64,000 nt of DNA from an uncultured Oscillospiraceae bacterium. GTDB lineage: Bacteria; Bacillota; Clostridia; Oscillospirales; Oscillospiraceae. How positions within the stretch are numbered: position 1 is the first letter of the stretch; each line of letters opens with the position of its first letter. Both the position numbers and the translations under genes were made by a program. Shown here piece by piece: positions 33,905-46,014 of this stretch. Location: contig CATKZW010000009.1 of NCBI GenBank assembly GCA_949841465.1, positions 1-64,000 on the forward strand, given 5' to 3'. Below the pieces are notes generated by a model. It had not been told where the DNA came from, ran no database searches, and was given only the letters and a program-made list of their open reading frames with translations.

Positions 33905-34229
33905 GGCGAAACCTCCTTTGAGATGATTGAAAATGATTTTTTCTGTGACTTCCGTTTGGATTAACTGCATGGTACACCCAAAAAAGATAATCGTCAATTT
34001 TTTATAATAATTTTCGGTCGCAAAAAATCGGACCAGGATTCAGCAATTGTGCGCAAAAATTAAAAATCAATCAAAACAAGTCAGGACGAAGCACATCCTG
34101 TCAAGGCGGCCCCATCAACCGCAGGCATTTCCCAGGCCGTCGGGCCGTTTTTACGAAAAACCATTGTCTTTTCCCTCCAACCTATGGTATGATGGGCCAG
34201 ATCAATTTTGAAGGAGCGGCAAAATAACC

Positions 34230-35831
34230 ATGATAACTGTCACTGACCTGAGCCTCAACTACAGCGGCACCCCGCTGTTCTCCCACGTGGACCTGCAGTT
34301 CGACCGGGGCAACTGCTACGGCATCATCGGCGCCAACGGCGCGGGCAAGTCCACCTTTTTGAAGATTCTCTCCGGCGAGCTGGACTCCACCTCCGGCGAG
34401 GTGAGCATTCTGCCAAACATCCGCATGTCCGTGCTGAAGCAGGACCAAAACGCCTACGACGCCTACAGCGTGATGGACACCGTCATCATGGGCAACCAGC
34501 GGCTGTACGACATCGGCAAGCAGAAGGACGCGCTCTACGCCAAGGAGGAGATGACCGACGAGGACGGCCTGCTGGCCTGCCAGCTGGAGGAGGAGTACGC
34601 CGAGCTGGGCGGCTGGGAGGCGGAGAGCAACGCCAGCCGCATTCTCCAGGGCCTGGGCGTGGGCACCGAGCACCACGAGGGGGGCATGGCCACCCTGGAC
34701 CCCCGCCTGAAGGTGAAGGTGCTGCTGGCCCAGGCGCTGTTCGGCAGCCCGGACCTGCTGATGATGGACGAGCCCACCAACAACCTGGACATCGACGCGG
34801 TGAACTGGCTGGAGGACTTCCTGCTGGACTTCGAGGGCACTGTCATCGTGGTGTCCCACGACCGGCACTTCCTCAACACCGTGTGCACCCACATCGTGGA
34901 CATCGACTACAATAAGATCAAGATGTATGTGGGCAACTACGACTTCTGGTACGAGTCCTCCCAGCTGGTGCAGCAGCTGGTGAAGAACCAAAACAAGCGC
35001 AACGAGGAGAAAATCAAGGAATTGCAGGACTTTATCTCCCGCTTCTCCGCCAACAAATCCAAGTCCAAGCAGGCCACCGCCCGGCGCAAGCTGCTGGACA
35101 AGCTGACGGTGCAGGAGATGCCCGCCTCCTCCCGGCGGTACCCCTTCGTGGGCTTCACCCCGGACCGGGAGGTGGGCAAGGACATCCTGTTCGTCACCGA
35201 CGTGAGCAAGACCATCGACGGGGTGAAGGTGCTGGACAAGGTGTCCTTCATCGTGGGCCATGACGAAAAGATCGCCTTCGTGGGGGACAACGAAAACGCC
35301 CACACGGCGCTGTTCAAGATTCTGGCCGGGGAGATGGAGCCCGACGAGGGCACCGTCAAATGGGGCCAGACGGCCACGTTTTCCTACTTTCCCAAGGACA
35401 ACACCCCCTACTTTGAGGACTGTGAGGACGACCTGGTCCAGTGGCTGCGCCAATTCTCCCGTGACCCCCAGGAGCAGTACCTCCGGGGCTTCCTGGGCCG
35501 GATGCTGTTCTCCGGGGAGGAGGTCCACAAGCCGGTGAAGGTTTTATCCGGCGGGGAGAAGGTGCGGTGCATGCTGTCCCGGATGATGCTGTCCGGGGCC
35601 AACGTGCTCATGCTGGACCAGCCCACCAACCACCTGGACCTGGAGTCCATCGCGGCGCTGAACAAGGGCCTGGAGGCGGTAAAATGCAACGTGCTGGTGG
35701 CCTCCCACGACCACCAGCTCATCCAGACCGTATGTAACCGGGTGTTCGACTTCACTGCGGACGGCAAGCTCATCGACAGCAAGACCACCTACGACGAGTA
35801 TCTGGACCGCCTGCACGAGACGGCCCAGTAG
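34230..35831 (+). CDS. ABC-F family ATPase
   Basis: Two ABC cassettes with linker; 'GANGAGKSTFLKIL', 'LMMDEPTNNLDIDAVNWLEDFL', 'LMLDQPTNHLDLESI'. Confidence 0.92.
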   Translation: MITVTDLSLNYSGTPLFSHVDLQFDRGNCYGIIGANGAGKSTFLKILSGELDSTSGEVSILPNIRMSVLKQDQNAYDAYSVMDTVIMGNQRLYDIGKQKDALYAKEEMTDEDGLLACQLEEEYAELGGWEAESNASRILQGLGVGTEHHEGGMATLDPRLKVKVLLAQALFGSPDLLMMDEPTNNLDIDAVNWLEDFLLDFEGTVIVVSHDRHFLNTVCTHIVDIDYNKIKMYVGNYDFWYESSQLVQQLVKNQNKRNEEKIKELQDFISRFSANKSKSKQATARRKLLDKLTVQEMPASSRRYPFVGFTPDREVGKDILFVTDVSKTIDGVKVLDKVSFIVGHDEKIAFVGDNENAHTALFKILAGEMEPDEGTVKWGQTATFSYFPKDNTPYFEDCEDDLVQWLRQFSRDPQEQYLRGFLGRMLFSGEEVHKPVKVLSGGEKVRCMLSRMMLSGANVLMLDQPTNHLDLESIAALNKGLEAVKCNVLVASHDHQLIQTVCNRVFDFTADGKLIDSKTTYDEYLDRLHETAQ

Positions 35832-39484: not shown

Positions 39485-41458
39485 TCATCCCCCGGCCATG
39501 GTAAACTGATCCACCAGCGACTTCAACCCGGCCGCCTCGGCGGAGAGCTCCTCGCTGGCCGCGGCGCTCTCCTCGGCGGTGGCGCTGTTGGTCTGCACCA
39601 CGGAGGAAATCTGGTCGATGCCCTCGGTGACCTGTGCCAGGGCGGCAGTCTGGTTTTCCACGGCCTCCACCACCAGGTCCATCTGGCTGGACACGCTGTC
39701 CGCGATCTCGCTGGTCCGCTCCAGGGATTCGGTCACCCGCTCCACTGCCCGGCCGCCCTCGAAGACGGAGGCAATGGAGCTCTCAATCAGCTCCTTGGTG
39801 GCCTTGGCCGCCTCGTCAGACTTGGAGGCCAGGTTGCGCACCTCATCGGCCACCACCGCGAAGCCCTTTCCGGCGGCGCCCGCCCGGGCGGCCTCCACTG
39901 CGGCGTTCAGCGCCAGGATGTTGGTCTGGAACGCAATGGTTTCGATGGCCGCGATGATCTTGGAGATCTCCTCGGAGGATCTGGATATGCTTTCCATAGC
40001 CGCGTTCAGCTCCTTGACGTGCTCCACGCTGGTGCGCAGCTGGGCGCCGGACTGAACCACGGACCGGCCCGCCTCCCCTGCGGCGGCCGCGGTCTTTTTG
40101 GCGTTGGCGGAGATGTCGTTGATGGTGGCCGCCAGCTCCTCCACGGAGCTGGCCTGCTCCATGGAGCCCTGGCTCAGCGTCTGGGCCCCGACGGACACCT
40201 GGCTGCTGGCGGCGGATACCTGCCCGGCGGCGGCGTTGATCTGGCGCAGGGTGCCGCTGAGCTCCAGCTTCATCGTGCGCATGGACAGCAGGATGCTCTG
40301 AAATCCCCCCACGTAGGCGTCACGGTGGCTGGACTGGATGTCAAAATTCTTGTTCGCCATCTCGGTGAGCAGATAGTCGATGTCGTTGATGATGGTGTTC
40401 AGCCCTGCCACCATCGACGCCGTGGAGCGGGTCAGCTCCGCCGTCTCATCCTGACCGGTGGCCTGGGGGACGGGGGACTTCAAATCGCCCTCCACCAGCA
40501 GCTTCATCCGTTCGGCGCACGCCCGCATGGGCACGCTGATGCTGCTGGACAGCTTCAGCGCCACCACGATGGAGGCCGCGATGGAGACCGCGACCACCAG
40601 CACGCTGATGAGGATGCCAAAGTATGTATCCGCCAGATAGTTTGACTTGGGCGAGGCCACGGCGAGGCTCCAGCCGTCGGTCCCGCTCACGGGGGCGTAG
40701 GCCAGAAAGCGGGGCCCGTCGTCGGCGCGGATGGAGCCGAACCCGTTCTCCCCCCTGCGCATGGCCGCATGGAGGGCGGCATTGCTTTTCAGGGCGGCGT
40801 CGCTCAGGGCCTCCCGTTCAATGTTCTGGGTGGTGATGGTGTCCAGCGTGATGTCGGCGATGGTGTCGCCGGACTTGTTGATCATATAGGCCCGGCAGTT
40901 CTCACCGATCTTGATGGAGGAGACGATGTCATTCAGAAAGGTCTCCTGGGGCACAAAATACACCACGCCCACAATCCGGCCGTCGCGGCTTCCGCCCTCA
41001 TAGAGGGGCGCGGCCACTATGATGGACAGCTCTCCTGTAATTTTGCTGACCAGCGGCTCGGACACATAGATATTGCCCTGCATGGCCTGCTTCACATACT
41101 CCCGGTCCGAGTAATCGTTGCCGTCGAAAATGCTGTAGCCGTTGACGCCGATGACGTTGCCCCGCCGGAAGCCGTGCATGGCGACGCGCTCGTCGATGAT
41201 GGCGCGCTTCTCCTCCAGCTCCACGCCGTCATCGGACAGCTGCGGAATACAGCCGGTGTCTATGGCCACGTTCTTGTAGGCCGTCAGTTCCTGCTCAATG
41301 CGCTGTGCCGCCAGCACCGCCGTCTCGCTCATCAGCTGGTCCACCGTGGCGACGGTGCTCCGGTAGCTGAGCGCGCTGCTGGCCGCCCCCACGGCGATCA
41401 GCGCGGTTAAAACGGTTGCCATCAAGCATACTGTGATTTTTGTACGAATGCTTTTCAT
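39485..41458 (-). CDS. Methyl-accepting chemotaxis protein with Cache-type sensor
   Basis: 657 aa; TM, periplasmic sensor, HAMP-like region, '[53 protein letters not shown]'. Confidence 0.95.
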
Positions 41459-42545: not shown

Positions 42546-42606
42546 AGCGCGGGGGATGGCGGGGCGGGGCCCGTGGCCCTGAGCCCGCCTTTCCCGCGCC
42601 GCCCTG

Positions 42607-42635
42607 TTGACAGCGGCGGGAAAACCTGCTATACT
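42607..42635 (+). promoter_or_regulatory. Sigma-A promoter of ABC-F leader
   Basis: TTGACA-N17-TATACT. Confidence 0.85.
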
Positions 42636-42665
42636 GGGTTCAACTTCATAGAAAAGGGTGAAAGA

Positions 42666-42677
42666 ATGCGCAAGTAA
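42666..42677 (+). CDS. Leader uORF MRK*
   Basis: ATGCGCAAGTAA preceded by AAAGGGTG; upstream of terminator and ABC-F gene. Confidence 0.5.
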   Translation: MRK

Positions 42678-42796
42678 GTCGAACTTCAAGCTGTGAACAA
42701 TGAGTTGAGGTCCATGTCACATGGGCCTGGGCTTTCATGGCGCGAAGGGCGGCTTGCTGACCGGGGGCATTCTGTGCCCCTGCCTTTTCGTCATGT

Positions 42797-42829
42797 AAAC
42801 CGTCTTTCTGTCATGAAAGACGGTTTTTT
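42797..42829 (+). terminator. Attenuator-type terminator upstream of ABC-F gene
   Basis: AAACCGTCTTTC TGTCAT GAAAGACGGTTT + TTT; ends ~23 nt before the ABC-F start. Confidence 0.85.
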
Positions 42830-42852
42830 CATGTTGAAAGGAGCGGATGCGT

Positions 42853-44412
42853 ATGTTACAGGTGAAAAATCTCACTGTCACCCATAAAAAAGACCTGACC
42901 ACCCTGGTGGAGGGGCTGTCCTTCACGCTGGCCCCCGGCGACCGGGCGGCCCTCATCGGCGAGGAGGGCAACGGCAAATCCACCGTCCTCAAGCTGCTGT
43001 ACGACCCGGCCCTGGCCGAGCCCTACGCGGAGTGGACGGGGGAGATCGTGGACCGGGGCCTGCGCAAGGGCTGGCTGGCCCAGGAGCTGACGCAGGAGGA
43101 GCTTGCCCTGCCGGTGTGGGAGTTCTGCCAGCGCGCCCCGGCCTTTGACGGCGCGGACCCCAAGGCGCTGGACCGGGCAGCCCGCCAGGTGGGGCTGGGG
43201 GCGGAGCTGTTCTGGGACGGGCGGCCCCTGTCCACCCTGTCCGGCGGGGAGCGGGTGAAGCTGCGGCTGGCCCTGCTGCTGCTGGACGGCCCCGACGTGC
43301 TGCTGCTGGACGAGCCCTCCAACGACCTGGACTTACAGACCGTAGAGTGGCTGGAGGAGTTTCTATTGGGGTGTAAAGTGCCGGTGCTATACATCTCCCA
43401 TGACGAGACGCTTTTGGAGCGCACCGCCAACGTGGTCATCCACCTGGAGCGGCTGCGGCGGCGGACGGTGTCCCGGTGCGCGGTGGTCCGGACAGGCTAC
43501 CGGGAGTACGTGGAGCGGCGGCAGGCGGGCTTTGCCCACCAGGAGCAGGTGGCCCGGAAGGAGCGGGCGGAGTACGACGCGAAAATGGAGAAGTTCCGCC
43601 AGATACGGGACAAAGTGGAGCACGCCCAGGCCACAGTCCCCCGCTATAATTCCGCCGGCATCCCCAACCCGTCCGCCGGGCGGCTGCTGAAAAAGAAGAT
43701 GCACACGGTGCTGTCCATGGGCCGCCGCTTCGAGCGGGAAAAGGAGGACATGACCGCCCTGCCCGAGTGGGAGGAGGCCATCTTGACTGCCTTTGACGCG
43801 GGGCGGTCCGCCTTTCCCGCGGGCAAGACGGCCCTGCGGCTGGACCTGCCCCAGCTGAGGGCCGGGGACCGGATGCTGGCCCGGGACGTGCGCCTGTGGG
43901 TGGACGGCGGGGAGAAGATCGGCATCGCGGGCCCCAACGGGGCGGGGAAGTCCACGCTCCTGAAGCTTGCGGCGGAGGAACTTCTGCCCCGGCGGGACCT
44001 GCGGGCGGCGTATATGCCCCAGGACTACGGCGACCTGCTGCTGGGGGACAAAACGCCGGTGGAGGTGCTGGCCCCAAGCGGCAGAAAGGAAGACGTGACA
44101 AGGGCCCGCACTTTACTGGGAAACATGAAGTACAAGGCGGAGGAGATGGAGCACCCGGCAGCGGGGCTGTCCGGGGGCCAGCGGGCGAAGCTGCTGTTTT
44201 TATCCATGGTGCTGAACGGGGCCAATGTGCTGGTGCTGGACGAGCCCACCCGGAACTTTTCGCCCCTGTCCGCGCCGGTGATCCGGCGGGTGCTGGAGGA
44301 TTTCCCCGGAGTTATCATCAGCGTGTCCCATGACAGAACGTATTTGGAGCAGGTGTGTACCCGCGTGCTGGAGCTGACCCCGGACGGTCTGAAAGAGTGC
44401 CGGTGGGAATAA
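42853..44412 (+). CDS. ABC-F ATPase, antibiotic-resistance-type (ribosome protection) candidate
   Basis: Two cassettes; 'VLLLDEPSNDLDLQTVEWLEEFLLGCKVPVLYISHDETLLERTA', 'LVLDEPTRNFSPLSAPVIRRVLEDFPGVIISVSHDRTYL'. Confidence 0.85.
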   Translation: MLQVKNLTVTHKKDLTTLVEGLSFTLAPGDRAALIGEEGNGKSTVLKLLYDPALAEPYAEWTGEIVDRGLRKGWLAQELTQEELALPVWEFCQRAPAFDGADPKALDRAARQVGLGAELFWDGRPLSTLSGGERVKLRLALLLLDGPDVLLLDEPSNDLDLQTVEWLEEFLLGCKVPVLYISHDETLLERTANVVIHLERLRRRTVSRCAVVRTGYREYVERRQAGFAHQEQVARKERAEYDAKMEKFRQIRDKVEHAQATVPRYNSAGIPNPSAGRLLKKKMHTVLSMGRRFEREKEDMTALPEWEEAILTAFDAGRSAFPAGKTALRLDLPQLRAGDRMLARDVRLWVDGGEKIGIAGPNGAGKSTLLKLAAEELLPRRDLRAAYMPQDYGDLLLGDKTPVEVLAPSGRKEDVTRARTLLGNMKYKAEEMEHPAAGLSGGQRAKLLFLSMVLNGANVLVLDEPTRNFSPLSAPVIRRVLEDFPGVIISVSHDRTYLEQVCTRVLELTPDGLKECRWE

Positions 44413-45963: not shown

Positions 45964-46014
45964 TTGACATGCATAGTTTGTGCGTAGTATAATATGCATG
46001 AGCCATGCGTATTA
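45964..46014. promoter_or_regulatory. Divergent promoter/operator region for XRE and partner gene
   Basis: TTGACA-N18-TATAAT; inverted repeat TAATATGCAT-N5-ATGCGTATTA (one mismatch). Confidence 0.6.

Follow-up and report, generated by a model that had tools for sequence, protein, structure and literature searches.

A conserved leader with a three-codon uORF as a probable ribosome-mediated attenuator of a resistance-like ABC-F gene in gut Oscillospiraceae

The window analyzed here, a 64,000-nucleotide stretch of DNA from an uncultured Oscillospiraceae bacterium, carries on its plus strand (42853-44412) a gene encoding an ABC-F ATPase of 519 amino acids. Its two NBDs, with the motifs DEPSNDLD in NBD1 and DEPTRNFSPLS in NBD2, are joined by an extended linker and there is no membrane part; the predicted model of the protein had a pLDDT of 89. 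The start of the open reading frame was placed at 42853; the ATG at 42847, though in frame, is not conserved. A second ABC-F gene of the window (533 amino acids, about 34150-35766) encodes a protein that grouped with E. coli YbiT (SH-aLRT 100) and is thus of the housekeeping type. Two perfect TTGACA-18-TATAAT promoters were also found, at 41552-41523 on the minus strand and at 45964-45993 on the plus strand, the former pointing into a chemoreceptor-like gene (39485-41458).

The features of the leader that precedes the 519-residue ABC-F all lie on the plus strand. A sigma-70-type promoter (42607-42635) was read from the sequence as TTGACA (42607-42612) and TATACT (42630-42635) separated by a 17-nt spacer, with an extended -10 element (TG). 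A promoter scan scored it at 11 of 12 consensus matches, and when 37 leaders were scanned most had a promoter match at the equivalent position. Downstream lie a Shine-Dalgarno (SD) region, AAAAGGGT (42652-42659), near-invariant in 26 leaders, and a uORF, ATG CGC AAG TAA (42666-42677), which encodes Met-Arg-Lys in the start context AAAAGGGTGAAAGA-ATG and is proposed here as the drug sensor. An earlier, sequence-only reading had described both the promoter and the MRK uORF, and both could be read directly in 42600-42855; the arrangement it gave as AAAGGGTG-N-ATG was slightly off in its spacing, five bases separating GTG from ATG. A longer uORF beginning at that upstream GTG (GTG AAA GAA ...) was considered and rejected: the GTG overlaps the SD region and is lost in leaders L029, L141 and L145, in which the ATG and the early stop are retained.

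The uORF was compared across the 37 leaders. The ATG was invariant in all of them, and a stop codon, TAA or TGA, was always kept after three or four codons, the sole change in length being an in-frame insertion of 3 nt. The encoded peptides were MRK (26 leaders), MRNK (4), MNK (3) and, in the rest, MEK, MIK, MRI or MRL, and the uORFs of distant relatives, at 54–58% protein identity, encoded MRK, MING, MIDG, MIIE, MTK or MLK. Fixed start, stop and frame combined with a variable peptide would suit a sensor of drugs that prevent formation of the first peptide bonds, and this variability argues against the sensing of one particular amino acid. It bears directly on the possibility of an attenuator in which amino-acid starvation would be sensed at the uORF codons for Arg or Lys. 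That MRK is the commonest peptide would agree with such a sensor. However, each of the two residues is replaced in relatives (MNK, MEK, MIK, MRL, MRI, MING, MIIE), the uORF offers only one Arg and one Lys codon, and the downstream gene is not biosynthetic, which makes this the least probable of the explanations weighed here.

The leader RNA had a predicted folding energy of -92.2 kcal/mol versus -57.0 ± 4.7 for shuffled sequences (z = -7.5). This value, together with conservation and covariation across dozens of species, places the leader far beyond chance. An intrinsic terminator with a 12-bp stem (42797-42826) and a U-run occupies 42797-42832, just before the ABC-F start, and its two strands compensate for each other across leaders, none of 5000 permutations being as good. 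The SD of the ABC-F gene, GAAAGGAG (42836-42843), is located 3' of the U-run; when its sequestration was considered as a further layer of control, acting on translation, it was predicted to be mostly paired in every state modelled, the full-length RNA included. When the RNA was compared with Rfam 15, also at a permissive threshold, no family reached the gathering threshold and the matches were at chance level, the strongest by bit score being to PyrR with 21 bits versus a cut-off of 54. A leader that binds a ligand or a protein, acting like a riboswitch or through an antiterminator protein with the uORF as an incidental feature, would account for an RNA that is long, very stable and conserved. 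It is nonetheless very improbable, if marginally less so than a starvation sensor, given the lack of matching Rfam families and the survival of the uORF ATG, stop and frame through 3-nt insertions and stop-codon changes.

Two alternative long-range structures were found in the leader. In the repressed state, an anti-antiterminator (42674-42757) is predicted to form by pairing of 42674-42696, a strand that contains the uORF stop codon, with 42735-42757, and it bears an apical hairpin (42709-42716 paired with 42720-42727). The repressed-state structure was paired in 96.4% of cells across 26 leaders, versus 42–47% in slid controls; in 14 pairs both partners varied, and the anti-antiterminator strands of each clade paired best with their own partners among 5040 clade permutations. 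A closing helix (42657-42792) joins the uORF SD region (42657-42664) to 42785-42792; it was 98.1% paired and mostly invariant, with one position changed on both sides. In this helix the SD region of the uORF faces the nearly invariant CUUUUCGUC (A1 columns 10-17 paired with 204-211), and its conservation is stronger than attenuation alone explains.

The second structure, the antiterminator (42735-42816), would pair 42735-42761 with 42790-42816 and thereby capture the 5' arm of the terminator together with its loop; a hairpin (GGGGGCA/TGCCCC, 42762-42782), present in both predicted states, forms its apex. It was paired in 92.4% of cells versus 31–51% in slid controls, its loop-pairing helix reached 97.8% with changes on both sides, and it was possible in 26 of 26 leaders with energies of -24 to -38 kcal/mol. 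A 9-bp antiterminator drawn by eye failed the clade-swap test (0.198). Constrained folding yielded a longer version that takes in the terminator loop and passed it, own-clade pairing being better than swapped pairing except in 6 of 5040 arrangements (0.0012). Since the anti-antiterminator and the antiterminator share the strand 42735-42757, they cannot coexist.

The consequences of a ribosome on the uORF were explored by masking its footprint during folding. With a stalled ribosome masked and the terminator complete, the predicted probability of the terminator in the window fell from 0.97 to 0.22–0.39 and the antiterminator fold was predicted, whereas it stayed at 0.97 with control masks placed elsewhere. 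Under the same conditions only 11 of the 37 leaders flipped at equilibrium, the terminator being favoured in most, so kinetics must contribute to the mechanism. In the window, before the 3' arm of the terminator is made, the best fold already contains the antiterminator even without a ribosome; hence repression must rest on an anti-antiterminator that forms early. Leaders from distant relatives, which lay outside the derivation of the model, had the same layout: folded freely, they formed an anti-antiterminator around the uORF, and with the ribosome masked and the 3' arm of the terminator still to be made, most of them folded into the antiterminator. Taken from comparative and folding evidence, the two structures appear to be mutually exclusive states tied to the position of the ribosome on the uORF. 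An attenuator-type leader with a three-codon uORF had already been proposed by the sequence-only reading, and the set of anti-antiterminator, antiterminator and terminator with covariation bears this out; so does the finding, at 42797-42832, of the 12-bp stem and T-run that it had noted just 5' of the ABC-F start. The two further hairpins of that reading are present, and they are really the apices of the long anti-antiterminator helix and of the antiterminator.

The reading that we favour, with a probability of about 0.78, is that the leader is a ribosome-mediated transcription attenuator silencing an intrinsic, chromosomal ribosome-protection ABC-F except in the presence of a drug that prevents the first peptide bonds from forming. 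In the absence of drug, ribosomes would translate the short uORF to its end and depart; the strand that surrounds the stop codon would pair with 42735-42757, and the terminator would form just before the ABC-F start. In its presence, a ribosome held at the start of the uORF or at the next codon would cover the 5' strand of the anti-antiterminator; the 3' strand, now free, would pair with the loop of the terminator and its 5' arm, allowing RNA polymerase to read through. Computation established the conservation of the uORF and of the three RNA structures, predicted the flip for the window and gave the protein an ARE-like architecture. Stalling at the uORF and protection of the ribosome by the ABC-F are presumed in this scheme, and the inducers would most likely be pleuromutilins, lincosamides and streptogramin A.

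Comparable leaders have been described. The vmlR gene of Bacillus subtilis (ARE2) is controlled by a tripeptide uORF, MIN, and its leader shares with the present one an anti-antiterminator that holds the uORF, an antiterminator apexed by a hairpin and a terminator 5' of the ABC-F gene (PMC9226507). This likeness is one of layout; the uORF peptide differs and the vmlR product belongs to another ABC-F lineage. An MRK uORF put in vmlR kept induction by lincomycin, less efficiently than the native uORF and with a two-fold lower MIC. The cplR leader of Clostridioides and Clostridium (ARE1) is likewise located on a clostridial chromosome, with a three-codon uORF of the MR type (MR[I/M]) and a terminator that adjoins the gene start (PMC10201436). 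In cplR, however, the terminator stem sequesters the SD of the gene, whereas here the SD is 3' of the U-run, and the present protein is not CplR (143 bits versus a cut-off of 780). The leader of lmo0919/vgaL in Listeria, compared with cplR leaders in PMC10201436, also precedes a PLSA ABC-F, but one of a different family. By analogy, the leader would work like the vmlR and cplR systems, and its ABC-F, examined for membership in their protein families, fell outside them. The uORF-controlled attenuator is real and of a known type, and the RNA element itself appears undescribed in the resources searched.

The architecture of the protein was assessed by the length of the linker, defined as the distance from the NBD1 H-loop to the NBD2 Walker A, and by that of the arm. 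Linkers of 169–179 residues and arms of 88–93 were found in this lineage, compared with 164–177 and 46–96 in PLSA and macrolide resistance ABC-Fs (CplR-like, Lsa(E), VmlR, VmlR2, Sal(B), Msr) and with 140–148 and 116–131 in housekeeping ABC-Fs (EttA, Uup, YbiT, YheS and an ABC-F of the same genome on contig C70; the arm value of YbiT, an artefact, was left out). The protein therefore has the long linker and short arm of the PLSA type, unlike the housekeeping EttA/Uup/YbiT/YheS architecture, with its short linker of 140–144 residues and long arm of 116–124.

Among the NCBIfam resistance families in the matches listed, the protein scored below every curated cut-off: CplR (ARE1, NF043038) gave 143.5 bits versus 780, Vga 181 versus 725, Lsa 129 versus 750, Sal 146 versus 725, Msr 165 versus 680, OptrA 133 versus 1450, and the generic resistance model 259 versus 380. 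PoxtA and VmlR had no family model among the 25 NCBIfam matches listed, and in the tree both were apart from this lineage. A profile search against solved structures retrieved VmlR2 (256 bits), Sal(B) (212) and VmlR (206) at the top, all three with a similar linker length, with the housekeeping YheS, Uup and ABCF1 close behind (about 198–202). VmlR2 was also the top match of a fold search, in which VmlR2, Sal(B) and VmlR showed about 21–28% identity. These three proteins nevertheless did not group with the present one in the tree. A phylogeny with ARE ABC-F proteins, a kind of check that the sequence-only reading had proposed, set the protein apart in a separate lineage (SH-aLRT 100) with a long stem and left it unplaced; a position beside one of the known ARE families was looked for and not obtained in this tree, whose branches are long. 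Literature searches found no paper on the family. On sequence grounds, the ABC-F belongs to none of the named resistance families compared, and its separate lineage appears undescribed in the resources searched.

The same attenuator might instead control an EttA-like translation-stress factor, the uORF reporting any defect of initiation or early elongation. Scores below the NCBIfam resistance cut-offs, profile scores of YheS, Uup and ABCF1 near those of VmlR and Sal(B), and the unplaced position in the tree would all be compatible with a stress factor. We consider it unlikely, though less so than the other alternatives, because the lengths of linker and arm agree with those of PLSA-type resistance ABC-Fs rather than with those of housekeeping proteins, the distribution of the gene is patchy, and separate housekeeping ABC-Fs exist in the same genome. 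A resistance-type ABC-F had been proposed earlier on the ground that DEPTRNFSPLS marks clostridial proteins of that type. This reason fails: the motif is near-invariant within the present lineage, which is all that it marks, and none of the CplR-like, Lsa(E), Msr, OptrA, PoxtA, VmlR, VmlR2 and Sal(B) sequences in the comparison has it. The proposal itself fits an interdomain linker that is long and an arm that is short, as in PLSA-resistance ABC-Fs, and a resistance-type protein is the likelier conclusion despite the failed motif argument. In NBD2 (44241-44273, second Walker B and D-loop), DEPTRNFSP replaces DEPTNHLD with loss of the D-loop Asp, and the Ser-Pro is fixed throughout the lineage. 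A comparable HLSP occurs in an ABC-F of Streptomyces (L135, second gene).

Orthologs of the ABC-F were present in 38 of 119 sampled relatives (54–89% identity), a patchy distribution typical of an accessory gene. A scan of named genomes identified 33 ortholog loci in Oscillospiraceae and Lachnospiraceae, carriers including Pseudoflavonifractor sp. An85 and Eisenbergiella. The same leader was found in nearly all close orthologs, and related leaders with other short uORFs at 54–58% protein identity. A covariance model of the leader detected exactly one copy in the genome of the window (E 5e-37), a single copy each in 29 of the 42 congeners and a few copies in sister genera; outside the genus, none was found in 391 genomes sampled from the class. 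In the loci inspected the leader was always 5' of this ABC-F and never before other genes. An origin in mobile elements was also considered and set aside, as no match of at least 60% identity was found in plasmid or phage collections.

These data raise the possibility, for which we see even odds, of a new resistance-type ABC-F subfamily in gut Oscillospiraceae and Lachnospiraceae, with the NBD2 D-loop Asp lost (NFSP for NHLD), mostly under uORF attenuation and with a drug spectrum of its own, its leader being a new RNA family. The favoured reading predicts that common gut anaerobes possess an inducible and intrinsic resistance to ribosome-targeting drugs that has so far gone unlisted; it would help to account for differences in their survival under clindamycin-type drugs. 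Natural variation of the uORF (MRK, MRNK, MNK, MEK, MIK, MRL, MRI and others) provides a ready test set for the question of how far the peptide of tiny uORFs matters in drug sensing.

Some ortholog loci departed from the common arrangement. Loci L064, L065, L140 and L143 had no attenuator at the gene start. In the first three, the ABC-F gene follows the 3' end and terminator of a neighbour that looked alaS-like on inspection, and has its own promoter; this lineage seems to have lost the regulation. Palindrome-rich insertions were observed between the leader terminator and the ABC-F SD, of tens of nucleotides in L045 and of about 200 nt in L060.
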